Of a stretch of DNA of 64,000 nucleotides, positions 37,378 to 42,961 are shown one piece after another. Under the pieces are notes generated by a model. It made no database searches and was not told the origin of the DNA. It saw nothing but the letters and a program-made list of their open reading frames with translations. A program made the translations under genes and the position numbers. The DNA comes from Collinsella sp. An2. Lineage in GTDB: Bacteria > Actinomycetota > Coriobacteriia > Coriobacteriales > Coriobacteriaceae. Positions within the stretch are counted from its first letter, which is position 1; each line of letters opens with the position of its first letter. The stretch covers positions 1 to 64,000 of the forward strand of contig NZ_NFJW01000008.1 in the NCBI RefSeq assembly GCF_002160065.1, in the 5' to 3' direction.

Positions 37378-38376
37378 ATGGTGGGCAAGCCCCCGTCTCC
37401 GGTGTCTGCCGGGGCGGGGGCTTCCGCTCCCGTGCCGTCGGGTGGGACGGACGGGGGAGCATCGCTTGGCGGCACGCCGCTGGGCGATGCCGTGGGGCTC
37501 TATCTGGACCATCTCTCCGTCGAGCGGGGCTTGTCGCCCAACACCGTCGCTGCATATCGGCGTGACCTCACGACGTACTGCGCTTTTCTGGCCGAGCGGG
37601 GCATACGCGAGCCCGACCAGGTGACCCGTGCGGACGTCGAGGCGTTTGTTGCCGACCGTCGCGCCGGAGGCTACGCCGATTCCTCTGTTGAGCGTGCGCT
37701 CAGCGCGGCGAAGGGCTTTCACCGCTTCATGGTGCGTGAAGGCATTGCGACCACCCATCCCACCTCGACGATTCACCTACCAAAGAAAAGTGACCGGTTG
37801 CCAGATTACATCTCGATCGAGGCGGCTCGCGCGCTGCTGGAGCAGCCCTTTCCCGCTACCGCTGCCGGTGCTCGGGATCGCGCGATGCTCGAGGTGCTTT
37901 ATGGCTGCGGCCTGCGTGTGAGCGAGCTGGTGGGGCTCGACCTTCGCGACATATATCTCGACGATGAATATCTGCGCGTCTTCGGCAAGGGATCGAAAGA
38001 GCGCCTCGTGCCCATCATGGGGTCGGCCGCATCGGCGCTGCAGGCGTATCTCGCGGGTCCTCGGGACGAGCTTGCGGCCCATGCGCGTCGCGCCGCAGCG
38101 GGGTCGGCGGTGTTTCTCAACAAAAACGGTGGCAGACTTTCTCGACAGACGGTATATGCGGTGTGTGAGCGCTATGGATCGGTCGTCGGTATCGAGGGGT
38201 TGCATCCCCATACGCTGCGTCACTCGTTTGCCACGCACATGCTTGCGGGTGGAGCGGACCTTCGCGTCCTTCAGGAGATCTTGGGCCACTCGGACATCTC
38301 GACCACGCAGATCTACACGCATGTCGATCGCACACAGCTGCGCGAGGTCTATCTGGCCGCGCACCCGCGAGCGTGA
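37378..38376 (+). CDS. xerD: Tyrosine recombinase XerD-like
   Basis: The protein of about 332 residues is a phage-integrase-family recombinase with an N-terminal SAM-like core-binding domain ([20 protein letters not shown]) and the catalytic domain with Arg in [25 protein letters not shown] (His and Arg), then [15 protein letters not shown] (His and the nucleophile Tyr). It resembles XerD, which resolves chromosome dimers at dif with XerC. The start is uncertain: ATG 37378 lacks a ribosome site, whereas GTG 37354 has AGGG at 6 nt. A Gly/Ser/Pro-rich leader precedes the core domain. It directly follows pyrG, as in many Actinobacteria and Firmicutes. Confidence 0.93.
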
Positions 38377-38566
38377 TGGGGCATTGCTGAGGTGGCGCAT
38401 CTTTGACCGCTTTTGACCATTCGAACGTGTTGACAACCGTTCGGACGGACGTGCTTGCGCAGGGGCAGCATTTTCGCTACGTTGATGCCAGATAGTGTGT
38501 TTGTGCTGTTCGCCTGCGTGTCGGACAGCTGAGGAAAGGCCGGTGCCGCCATGCTCCGTTCTGTGA

Positions 38567-41500
38567 TTGAATTCCCGTTCTGGGGGGGGGGACGCTCATT
38601 CTGAGCATTTGACGGGGGAGCGGGGACGCTGCCGCGCTCACGCAATGTCCGTTCTCGCGTTGGTGCTTGCGGCGCTTTTGGCGTGGTGTGTGGTCCCGGG
38701 TGCGCTGGGCGAATCTGTGGCCCAGGCGGCGACGCTTTCCGAGGTGCTAGGTGCTACTGTTCGAATGGGGGCGCCCGCTGACGGCGATACCGTGCAGGCG
38801 TTGATTGACGCGCTGCCCACGGCGGAGGCCTTGGCGTCGATGTCCCAGGACGAACAATCGGCGGTTTACGACCAGGTGCAGACGACCTACGAGGCCTACA
38901 ACGCCCTTACCGACGAGCAGAAAGAGCAGATCACCGGGACGGAGGTTATCAACGACCTCTTTGCCGTGTTCAATGGCATGACGACGCTGGCGGCAGAAGA
39001 AACTGGCTTTACCTATACCACGGAGGCAAATCAAACTAAAACGACTACTGATGCCATCCTAAGTCTCATTGGTCAGTCTGAACAAAGCGACAAGTTCACA
39101 GTGACACAGGGCAATGGAACAAGTATTACATCAGATCGGGATTTAACGCTTGCTGGTAATATTACAGTAACGGGAGATATATCGACTTCAGGTAGTAAGT
39201 TGACCATTTCAAGTGGAAATTTTGTTGCAGGCGGAAAAATCAGCAGTCAAGTTCAACTTGCTATCTCTGGCGGACATGTGACGGTATCTAGCATTGCCAT
39301 AACTGGAACTTTGAATGGCGGTACTGGATGTACTCTCAATATTACTGGGGGCGTCGTTGACGTAAACTCAATCACACTCCAAAATAGCGGCACTGGTCCC
39401 GCAACTTTTACCGTCAACGGAAACAGCGCAGTGGTATTTGCCAACGAGGTGTCGGTAACTGCAGGCGGAACCGCCTCGAAAAACTATCAAAACGGCGTGG
39501 TATTTGAAGGCACAAGCGGCACCGTCTACGGCAGCGTCACCCTCCCCGACGATGTGACCATCCCGGAGGGTTACACCCTCACCATCCCCAGCGGCGCCAG
39601 CCTGACCGTGCCCAGCGGCACAACGCTGACCAACGAAGGCACCGTTACCGTAGAGGACGGCGGCACCTTCACCAACAGCGGCACCATTGAGGACTATGGG
39701 ACGATCACCGGCACGGTAGGCGGCATTACACCGCAACGCCCGGCCACAGTTTCCGTGACTGTAACCCCCGCCACCGCCACCTACGGCTCCACCGTTACTC
39801 CAATGGCCACGGTCGCAGGCGGCTCCGGGGTGGTCAATGACGGCACCGTGACCTTCTATCAGGGAACGGATACAACCGGCGCCCCGCTGAACAGCACGCC
39901 CGCAAATGTATCCAACGGCACCGCAACGTATGAGCTGGAGTTGACCGGCGCCAACTGGAAACCCGGCACCTACACCATCGCCGCCGTCTACAGCGGCGGC
40001 GCCGGCCTGCTGGGGAACACCGGCACCGCCCCCCTCACCGTGTCCAAGGCGACGACCGACGCAACGCCAGTTGGGCCCATTTCGTCATCCAGTCGATCTG
40101 AAACCGGCATAACGCTGAATACAGTTTCTGATGGCAACATCGGCACCTATGGCGAGATTCAATACGGCTATGTGACAGGTACGGAGACTGAGCCAGGCCA
40201 CTGGCAGGACGGCGCCGCATTTACCAACCTGAACCCCGGCACAGACTACACCTTCTACACCCGATACGCCGGAAATGACTACTATAACCCATCCGATCCC
40301 AGCACTACCGGCCTGACCGTCACCACCCTGCCACAAATTATGACCACCAGCCTGGACGACGGAACGGTGGGCGTGTACTATTCCCAAGCCCTGAAAGCCA
40401 ATGTGGAGACCGGCAAGACCGTGACCTGGGAGCTTGCTACCGGCTCCACGTTGCCCGCCGGATTGACACTGAGCAACGACGGCACCATCACGGGCACGCC
40501 AGAGGGGACGGCTGCCAACCACAATTTCACCGTCCAGGCAACCATACAAGGCGGCGCGCCCGGCAGTGAAAACCCACATGACCTTGCGAGCCTGTCCATC
40601 ACCATCAACGCCGGTACGCCGGACATCACGGCCACTACATACAAGGGCGAGGACCAGACCAGCACATTCACCTACGGCGACACCATCACGGTCACCGGCA
40701 CGATTGCCGCCTCCAGCATGCCGCCAGCGGCCAGCAACGGTATCAACGCCATCACCGAACCGGCGCAGGATCAAGTGGGGCTGTATGTGTCGGGAAATGA
40801 TAGCCTGATTGCCACGGCGAATGTCACCGACGGCAGCTTTACCCTGAAATACAATACCGCTGACAAGGCTATCCCGACAGGCCAGCCGCAGACCCTCACG
40901 GTAAAATACGGCGGCAGCAGCACTCTAAACAGCGGCTCTACCACGGTGCAGATCACCCTGAACAAGAAGGCGGTAACGGCGCAGGTGCAGGGCGCCATTA
41001 CCAAGGTCTACAACGGCAACACCGACGCGGCGGTTTCTCTGGCCGTGGCTGCGGACGATCTTGTAAAGAGCACAGATAACATCATCGTGACTGGCACCGG
41101 TACCTACCAAAGCGCCGGGGTGGGGACAAATATCCCCGTCACCGTTAGCATTACGGGAACCAGCGGCAACGACACGGACTGGTACACGGTCACCGCCCCC
41201 ACCGGCGTTACCGGTTCCATCATGCAGAGCAGTACCGAACTAAAGGTCGAGCCGTCTAGCGCGAGCCTCACCTACGGCGACACCCTCACGCTTACCGTAG
41301 CACCGTGTGCCACAGGGGAGGCACCAGCGCAGAATACACTGCTCGCGGGATTGCACAGGCTCGTTGACCTACTGACGGACGCGAATGGCGACACCGTTGA
41401 GCTCTACAACGGCGATAAGCTCCTTGCCGGTACGAGCAAAAAGAACGCGGACGGCTCCTACACCCTGACGTACAACACGGCGGACAAGGGCCTGTCCGTC

Positions 41501-42961
41501 GGGAACAACACGCTGACCGTCAAGTTCAACGGCGACACCAACATGGTCGCCAGCGAGGCAAGCGTTACCGTGACGTTGAAGCGGAAGGAGGCTACCGCCT
41601 CCGTCTCCGGTACGCCGAGCAAGACGTACGACAGCGCGACGGACGTCACGGTTAGCTTGGCGTTTGATAACGGTGTGCTGGTGGATGGCGATAGCTTTAC
41701 GGGTACCGTTGCCGGCAGCTTCAGCGATGCGAACGCGGGGGAGGGTAAGTCCATCACTCTGGGCACCACCCCCACATGGTCGAATGACACCATTGCCGGG
41801 TTCTATGACATCGCCCTGCCGGGCAACGTCACTGGAAATATCCTCAAGGCGCGTCCCGGGCTGTCGCTCGCCGCAGATCACGGCCAGCTGCTGGGCGGCG
41901 GGCGCGTGGTCCTTACGATCGAGGGGCTTCCCGAGGGCGCGGCGGCAGAAGTCTCGTGCTCCGACTCGTCTATCACGGTGACGGGGGAGGGCTCCTCGTG
42001 GGAGGCCTACCTGCCCAACCGGTCGACGGAATACACCTTCATGGCCACCTCGTCCGAGACCGTCAACTACAGCGCGGGGCAGGCATCCTGTTCCGTGGAT
42101 GTCTCCTACTCGGCCCCGCCGGTGCCGACCTACCCGCCGACGGTCGACGCGGGGGCGGGCGGCACCGTCGAGGTCTCGCCCGCGCGCCCGCATAAGGACC
42201 AGACGGTCACCGTCGAGCCGGTCCCCGACGAGGGGCAGGAGGTCCGCGAGGTCGTGGTGACCGACAAGGACGGGAAGCCCGTCGAGGTCGTCGACAACGG
42301 CGACGGCACGTGGTCGTTCGTCCAGCCCGCGGGCAAGGTGATCATCGAGGTCTCCTTCGGCTGCGACGGCGGGGAGCTCTGCGCGACGCACGGCTTCGTC
42401 GACGTCGACCAGGGCGCGTGGTACCACGACGCAATCGACTGGGCCGTGGATGCCGGCGTTCTCCACGGCTACGACGGCACCGGCCTCATGGGCCCCGACG
42501 ACGTGCTCACCCGCGCCCAGCTGGCCACGATCATCTCCAACGTCGAGGGCGCCGCCCCCGGCAACCCCTCGGCGCTCGACGGCTTCACGGACGCTGACCC
42601 CGACGCCTGGTACGCTGGGACCCTCTCCTGGGCCGTCTCCGAGGGACTCTTCTCCGGCTACGACGGCACCTCCCTCATGGACCCCGACGGCGCCCTCACG
42701 CGCGAGCAAGCCGCAGCGGTGCTCATGCGCTGGGCCGCCCTGCGCGGGGAGGACACGTCGCAGCGCGCTGACCTCTCGGACTACCCGGATGCGACGGACG
42801 TCTCCCCCTGGGCCCGCGAGTGCATGAGCTGGGCGGTGGCGACGGGCGTCGTCTCCGGCGTCGAGCGCGCGGACGGCTCGCCCGCCATCCTCGACCCGGT
42901 GGGCACCGCTACCCGCGCTCAGGCCGCGGCTCTCATGATGCGACTGCTGGCGGGGGAGTAG
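38567..42961 (+). CDS. Large SLH-anchored surface protein with Ig-like repeats
   Basis: The frame runs 1464 residues. A signal-like stretch (SVLALVLAALLAWCVV, ending near VAQA) is followed by a helical segment, a Thr/Gly-rich beta-repeat region, several Ig-like modules (LPAGLTLSNDGTITGTP is typical of a putative-Ig fold), and three SLH repeats at the C-terminus (HGFVDVDQGAWYHDAIDWAV, and copies near 1340 and 1400) that bind cell-wall polymers. It should be a surface adhesin or S-layer-associated protein. No good start lies in frame: 38567 is TTG and ATG 38645 lacks a ribosome site. ATG 38551, with GAGGAAAGG upstream, is one base out of frame across G10. Base composition changes along the gene: AT-rich near 39000-39450, GC-rich after 42100. 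Confidence 0.85.
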   Translation: MNSRSGGGDAHSEHLTGERGRCRAHAMSVLALVLAALLAWCVVPGALGESVAQAATLSEVLGATVRMGAPADGDTVQALIDALPTAEALASMSQDEQSAVYDQVQTTYEAYNALTDEQKEQITGTEVINDLFAVFNGMTTLAAEETGFTYTTEANQTKTTTDAILSLIGQSEQSDKFTVTQGNGTSITSDRDLTLAGNITVTGDISTSGSKLTISSGNFVAGGKISSQVQLAISGGHVTVSSIAITGTLNGGTGCTLNITGGVVDVNSITLQNSGTGPATFTVNGNSAVVFANEVSVTAGGTASKNYQNGVVFEGTSGTVYGSVTLPDDVTIPEGYTLTIPSGASLTVPSGTTLTNEGTVTVEDGGTFTNSGTIEDYGTITGTVGGITPQRPATVSVTVTPATATYGSTVTPMATVAGGSGVVNDGTVTFYQGTDTTGAPLNSTPANVSNGTATYELELTGANWKPGTYTIAAVYSGGAGLLGNTGTAPLTVSKATTDATPVGPISSSSRSETGITLNTVSDGNIGTYGEIQYGYVTGTETEPGHWQDGAAFTNLNPGTDYTFYTRYAGNDYYNPSDPSTTGLTVTTLPQIMTTSLDDGTVGVYYSQALKANVETGKTVTWELATGSTLPAGLTLSNDGTITGTPEGTAANHNFTVQATIQGGAPGSENPHDLASLSITINAGTPDITATTYKGEDQTSTFTYGDTITVTGTIAASSMPPAASNGINAITEPAQDQVGLYVSGNDSLIATANVTDGSFTLKYNTADKAIPTGQPQTLTVKYGGSSTLNSGSTTVQITLNKKAVTAQVQGAITKVYNGNTDAAVSLAVAADDLVKSTDNIIVTGTGTYQSAGVGTNIPVTVSITGTSGNDTDWYTVTAPTGVTGSIMQSSTELKVEPSSASLTYGDTLTLTVAPCATGEAPAQNTLLAGLHRLVDLLTDANGDTVELYNGDKLLAGTSKKNADGSYTLTYNTADKGLSVGNNTLTVKFNGDTNMVASEASVTVTLKRKEATASVSGTPSKTYDSATDVTVSLAFDNGVLVDGDSFTGTVAGSFSDANAGEGKSITLGTTPTWSNDTIAGFYDIALPGNVTGNILKARPGLSLAADHGQLLGGGRVVLTIEGLPEGAAAEVSCSDSSITVTGEGSSWEAYLPNRSTEYTFMATSSETVNYSAGQASCSVDVSYSAPPVPTYPPTVDAGAGGTVEVSPARPHKDQTVTVEPVPDEGQEVREVVVTDKDGKPVEVVDNGDGTWSFVQPAGKVIIEVSFGCDGGELCATHGFVDVDQGAWYHDAIDWAVDAGVLHGYDGTGLMGPDDVLTRAQLATIISNVEGAAPGNPSALDGFTDADPDAWYAGTLSWAVSEGLFSGYDGTSLMDPDGALTREQAAAVLMRWAALRGEDTSQRADLSDYPDATDVSPWARECMSWAVATGVVSGVERADGSPAILDPVGTATRAQAAALMMRLLAGE
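38582..38591 (+). repeat. G10 homopolymer at the 5' end of the surface-protein gene
   Basis: Ten consecutive G follow TTCT. The frame from ATG 38551 (with GAGGAAAGG upstream) reads into a TGA at 38602 with ten G; with nine G it would join the long surface-protein frame and supply a start just before the signal-like stretch. This is the usual design of a slippage-driven phase switch. Sequencing error in a homopolymer is the main alternative. Confidence 0.9.

Follow-up and report, generated by a model that had tools for sequence, protein, structure and literature searches.

Introduction

The closest described systems are the pilus loci bbr_0113 and bbr_1889 of Bifidobacterium breve UCC2003, in which the length of a G tract joins or severs a short upstream open reading frame (ORF), which carries the real ribosome site, and the frame of a very large surface protein (PMC9187656). 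These loci are OFF in the deposited genome of a gut actinobacterium, joining the two frames at the tract gave piliated strains, and the tract lengths shifted in mice (PMC9187656). The parts of other reports available to us describe poly-G tracts in the reading frames of the Neisseria surface proteins hmbR and hpuAB, which are turned ON and OFF by slippage (PMC3786947), and homopolymer-linked or phase-variable traits in the actinobacteria Propionibacterium acnes and Gardnerella (PMC4746626, PMC11287997). Homopolymer switching was not found in the titles and abstract beginnings of the open-access literature on phase variation or slippage in Collinsella and Coriobacteriia.

Here we analyze a G10 tract in a 64-kb window (the whole stretch of DNA studied, 64,000 nucleotides of Collinsella sp. 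An2). The arrangement points strongly to a contingency locus, and slipped-strand translational phase variation of a large surface protein is in our judgment highly likely. The locus resembles those of B. breve in respects given above: the frames joined or severed by the tract, the ribosome site on the short ORF, the kind of organism and the OFF state of the deposited genome. It differs in that the B. breve proteins are sortase-dependent pilins for which slippage was measured, whereas the window gene encodes a protein predicted from its sequence to be anchored by S-layer-homology (SLH) repeats; in addition, three paralogues here have one promoter and leader cassette, with a small inverted repeat 3' of the tract. 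Going by the same parts of those reports, the Neisseria proteins and lineage are unrelated and have no common leader, and P. acnes and Gardnerella belong to other lineages.

Results and Discussion

Anatomy of the window locus

The features of the locus are as follows.

38417–38446, + strand: two direct sites, CCATTCGAAC (38417–38426) and CCGTTCGGAC (38437–38446), 20 nt apart, from the alignment of three leaders
38455–38483, + strand: promoter-like TTGCGC-N17-TACGTT, predicted, read from the sequence
38531–38539, + strand: ribosome-binding-like GAGGAAAGG, 11 nt 5' of the ATG; GAAAGGCYGGTRCCGCCATG is common to the three leaders
38551–38604, + strand: short ORF from ATG 38551, 17 codons, closed by TGA 38602–38604; the OFF state at G10
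38567–42961, + strand: surface-protein frame, 1464 codons as listed, with YDG, Big_3_5 (Ig-like) and C-terminal SLH repeats (42395–42715)
38582–38591, + strand: G10 tract and putative switch; G9 and G12 are the ON lengths (from sequence and in silico frames)
38592–38608, + strand: inverted repeat ACGCTC-ATTCT-GAGCAT, which carries TGA 38602 and contains CTC 38595–38597
38645–38731, + strand: signal-peptide-like stretch of the surface protein, MSVLALVLAALLAWCVVPGALGESVAQAA, read by eye from the translation

The coding sequence of the window gene thus contains a simple repeat close to its 5' end, and the length of this repeat sets the frame. According to the preliminary description, ATG 38551 is out of frame by one base across G10 and stops at 38602, and all of these coordinates hold. 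Its prediction that G9 would fuse this ATG to the surface protein was borne out when the run length was changed in silico: among G8–G12, only G9 (1469 aa) and G12 (1470 aa) place ATG 38551 in the surface-protein frame. At G8 and G11 the frame is closed after 19–20 codons, and the products of the OFF lengths (G8, G10, G11) measure 17–20 aa versus 1469–1470 aa when ON. The ribosome site at ATG 38551, described as good, is indeed present; its strength is moderate, so the wording was slightly overstated, and we count this against a switch. The listed start of the 1464-codon ORF, TTG 38567, lies inside the short ORF in a different frame.

The hydrophobic stretch of the surface protein, with an AQA-A, is, as judged by eye, a candidate secretion signal. 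The C-terminal SLH repeats were matched in two stretches by PF00395 with an E value of 1.3e-20. An Rfam search over 38300–38800 returned nothing up to E = 1.

In the window, approximately 5.4 kb including the surface gene lie between a xerD-like gene and a conserved block that is mraZ- and rsmH-like by sequence. The same interval measures approximately 0.36 kb in the sister genome G001, so the surface gene is accessory and sits at a conserved place. Inversion by the adjoining recombinase was also considered and is unlikely, because the recombinase is XerD-type by sequence and is also present in the sister genome without the surface gene.

Two paralogues with the same leader cassette

When the DNA of 38340–38760 was used as a query, two more loci (C23 and C1, unlinked) were identified in the same genome. 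The leaders of the window gene (C45), C23 and C1 can be aligned over approximately 200 bases and have the same order: two CCRTTCGRAC sites 20 nt apart, a TTG-type −35 box, a 17-nt spacer and TACGTT (both retained in all three), GAAAGGCYGGTRCCGCCATG, around ten variable codons, the G tract and an inverted repeat AYGCTC-RTTCT-GAGCRT. GAAAGG and its distance to the ATG are conserved in the two paralogues. The tandem TTCGGAC-type sites are probably the binding site of a common regulator, as their placement in the leaders suggests. Genome-wide, the exact double TTCGGAC is confined to C23, C1 and a copy of the C1 promoter, and the window copy has one mismatch. A segment of around 408 bases from the C1 promoter region is present twice (96%; L182:1186-1592 and L006:997-1403), with one copy on each side of an ATPase-like gene just 5' of the C1 surface gene.

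The arms of the inverted repeat in the paralogues are ACGCTC/GAGCGT and ATGCTC/GAGCAT, with one pair altered on both sides. In each of the three leaders, one wrong-frame stop lies within the repeat (TTC TGA) and the other immediately 3' of it (TGA or TAG; in the window TGA 38610–38612, just past the repeat). Both wrong frames are therefore closed at once. Read in the right frame, all three leaders encode GGDA[HR]SE[HR]L across the tract end and the repeat.

As assembled, the three copies are in different states. C23 (G10) is ON, being in frame from its leader ATG with 1413 aa. C1 (G9) is OFF and requires G10, and the window gene (G10) is OFF and requires G9. A domain search found SLH and YDG domains in all three proteins, and Ig-like domains above the cut-off in two of them (Big_3_5 in the window protein, He_PIG in C23).

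C23 lacks an in-frame ATG, GTG or TTG from the tract to the hydrophobic signal stretch; if its product is exported, translation must therefore begin at the leader ATG. Given the homology with C23, the upstream ATG 38551 is probably the real start of the window gene. This bears on the idea that translation starts downstream of the tract, at ATG 38645 or TTG 38567, and that the G tract is a 5' feature that is inert or has no more than a tuning effect; the preliminary description had named a start at 38645 as one that would refute a switch. ATG 38645 is in frame and immediately precedes the hydrophobic stretch. However, neither 38645 nor 38567 has a ribosome site nearby, C23 offers no such start, and the ribosome site, the ATG and the double wrong-frame closure are conserved across the three leaders. 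A downstream start is thus disfavored, and we regard it as improbable.

Long G runs are generally slippery for polymerases. The tract could have a fixed length, and slippage of RNA polymerase or the ribosome on G10, perhaps aided by the inverted repeat directly 3' of it, would yield a small, constant fraction of full-length product with no genetic switching. Against this, the offsets required as assembled differ between the paralogues (none for C23, +1 for C1 and −1 for C45), and a programmed constant frameshift is disfavored because a different one would be required for each of the three. Moreover, orthologous tracts differ in length among relatives (see below), and genomic tract length mattered in B. 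breve (PMC9187656). Together these points leave the fixed-length explanation very improbable.

Poly-G tracts in the rest of the genome

The G10 run by itself is unremarkable, since 0.24 such runs are expected in the window and 13 of 100 shuffles contain at least one. In the 2.54-Mb genome there are 13 runs of G9 or longer, where a first-order Markov model predicts approximately 24. Five of these 13 are located 28–32 nt 3' of an ATG, at the N-terminus of genes of approximately 1200–2740 codons: the window tract (C45), C1:242972, C23:181524, C12:75542 and C12:66294. These giant surface genes contain every G10 run of the genome, three in all. By our estimate, which assumes a few tens of genes of that size rather than a count of them, a given run would fall in the first 50 bases of a giant gene on the right strand with a chance of about 1e-4 to 1e-3; on this estimate the N-terminal placement of five runs is far beyond chance.

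The two tracts on C12 lie 28 or 32 nt 3' of their ATG. The G10 tract at C12:75542 is followed by approximately 2740 codons ending in LPGTGD and a membrane anchor, and the G9 tract at C12:66294 by approximately 1720 codons ending in LPSTGD and an anchor. Both genes are OFF as assembled and are close analogues of the B. breve UCC2003 pilus loci. A G9 run ahead of an SLH gene (C34:36791) was initially counted and then dropped, as the downstream start has its own signal-like sequence. Close to the two LPXTG giants, a further G9 run (C12:60372-60380; L079) lies within a 150-aa ORF, 29 nt 3' of its ATG; the ORF is regulator-like in look and in frame as assembled. This run is a possible sixth switch.

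Of the five N-terminal tracts, four are OFF as assembled, which is about what random phase would give. This proportion speaks against the window gene being a dead pseudogene, and against a permanently intact G9 having been misassembled as G10. The frame is certainly broken in the assembly, and homopolymers are error-prone; that their assembled length can be erroneous is counted against a switch as well. Yet the other 1464 codons are open with their domains intact, the promoter-like sequence and the ribosome site are retained, and the sole break falls at the slippery tract. Decay or misassembly is therefore extremely unlikely as the explanation.

Neither the MutS domain I model nor the NucS model had a match in this genome, which is 99.87% complete. 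As controls, the MutS_I model matched 11 of 14 genomes and the NucS model 7 of 14. Missing mismatch repair is expected to lower the stability of such tracts.

Tract-length differences among relatives

The leader pattern G7-N0-4-RYGCTCRTTCTGAGCR is absent from every other of the 65 family genomes, which we again count against a switch, and a scan of named genomes with the N-terminal domain gave matches only in distant MAGs. The sister genome G002 (L139) has a tract of its own that is OFF at G9 and ON at G10, with a signal-like stretch 3' of it.

Many Flp-type pilin genes (GQSIIEYVLI) with ATGCATGCAGCGG are found in g3, a genus of the same family. A run of G9–11 lies between the ATG and the GQSIIEYVLI signature, and both ON and OFF states are present (loci L083, L085, L087-L091, L097 and L101). 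At one pilin locus, the run is G9 (ON) in G012 and G10 (OFF) in G017, and the 120 flanking bases match throughout. At another locus, it is G10 in G007 versus G9 in G008 and G013, again with no flanking mismatches. These pairs are the best direct sign of poly-G length change within the family, at a locus other than that of the window.

The preliminary reading of the tract as a phase-variation switch is strengthened by the paralogous cassettes, found both ON and OFF, and by the two further giants with N-terminal G tracts. The undetected MutS and NucS and the tract-length differences at identical loci of relatives point the same way.

Other G runs were noted in the relatives. An ORF of approximately 210–240 codons in several g3 genomes has G9 or G10 near its start and nearly identical flanks (L084, L098, L099, L100, L153, L170, L171). 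In G001, G10 lies in the spacer of a promoter-like TTGACA-N18-TATGCT (L120:1486-1516), and in G002, G9 lies in that of TTGACG-N18-TAACTT (L136:1496-1525); judging by this position, both are possible transcriptional switches. One contig (L095; G018:C50) breaks off exactly where the G run of a pilin leader lies, and draft assemblies may accordingly have lost or broken some switches.

A recurring G-run/CTC flank

The window tract is followed by CTC at a short distance (38592–38597), and further examples are seen at L027, L084, L119, L131 and L136. Counts over the 65 family genomes gave 121 occurrences of G9 with a non-G base, one or two further bases and CTC directly 3' of it, versus 15 of the mirror pattern; these raw counts are inflated by homologous genes, and the pattern was spotted in the same data later used for counting. 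Per genome, 44 exceed their own mirror control and one falls below it. In a set of 57 non-redundant tracts retrieved independently of the motif, 17 have CTC at +3 or +4, against approximately 2 expected. In the phylum sample, no excess was found outside the class (36 vs. 35); within the order, one family showed 19 vs. 19 and another 9 vs. 0. The flank occurs at unrelated genes, in coding leaders and elsewhere, in two families of the order.

Tentatively, and with more doubt than confidence, we suggest that G9-11-N2-3-CTC may be a defined DNA element, either a cis signal for the rate or direction of slippage or the site of a dedicated factor. If so, the variability of the tracts would be programmed, beyond what the polymerase alone does. 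One idea is that CTC folds back onto the G run and promotes slippage; this is weakened by the enrichment of CTC rather than CCC, which would be the better pairing partner. A more general hairpin 3' of G tracts was considered and dropped, as it is only weakly enriched outside the leader family (a stem of at least 5 after the tract in 12 of 57, against 4–8 in control windows). The shared flank makes a tuning effect of sequence context on tract slippage accessible to testing.

Conclusion

Under phase variation, replication slippage would add Gs to the window tract or remove them. In the OFF state (G8, G10, G11), a ribosome from ATG 38551 would halt after approximately 17–20 codons. In the ON state (G9, G12), it would read through to the 1469-residue protein with Ig-like domains, which we infer to be expressed and anchored at the surface by its SLH repeats. 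The sequenced state would be OFF. The genome would have at least five N-terminal poly-G switches, three in paralogous SLH genes with the common promoter and leader cassette and two in LPXTG genes. Should the five switch independently, as we infer, up to 32 surface combinations would result, and in principle many different surfaces could arise from one cell line. The deposited genome would then represent one of many surface states, with a bearing on strain comparison, immune recognition and phage sensitivity. If this is true, gut bacteria of this group randomly mix surface variants through a mechanism that many pathogens and bifidobacteria also use.
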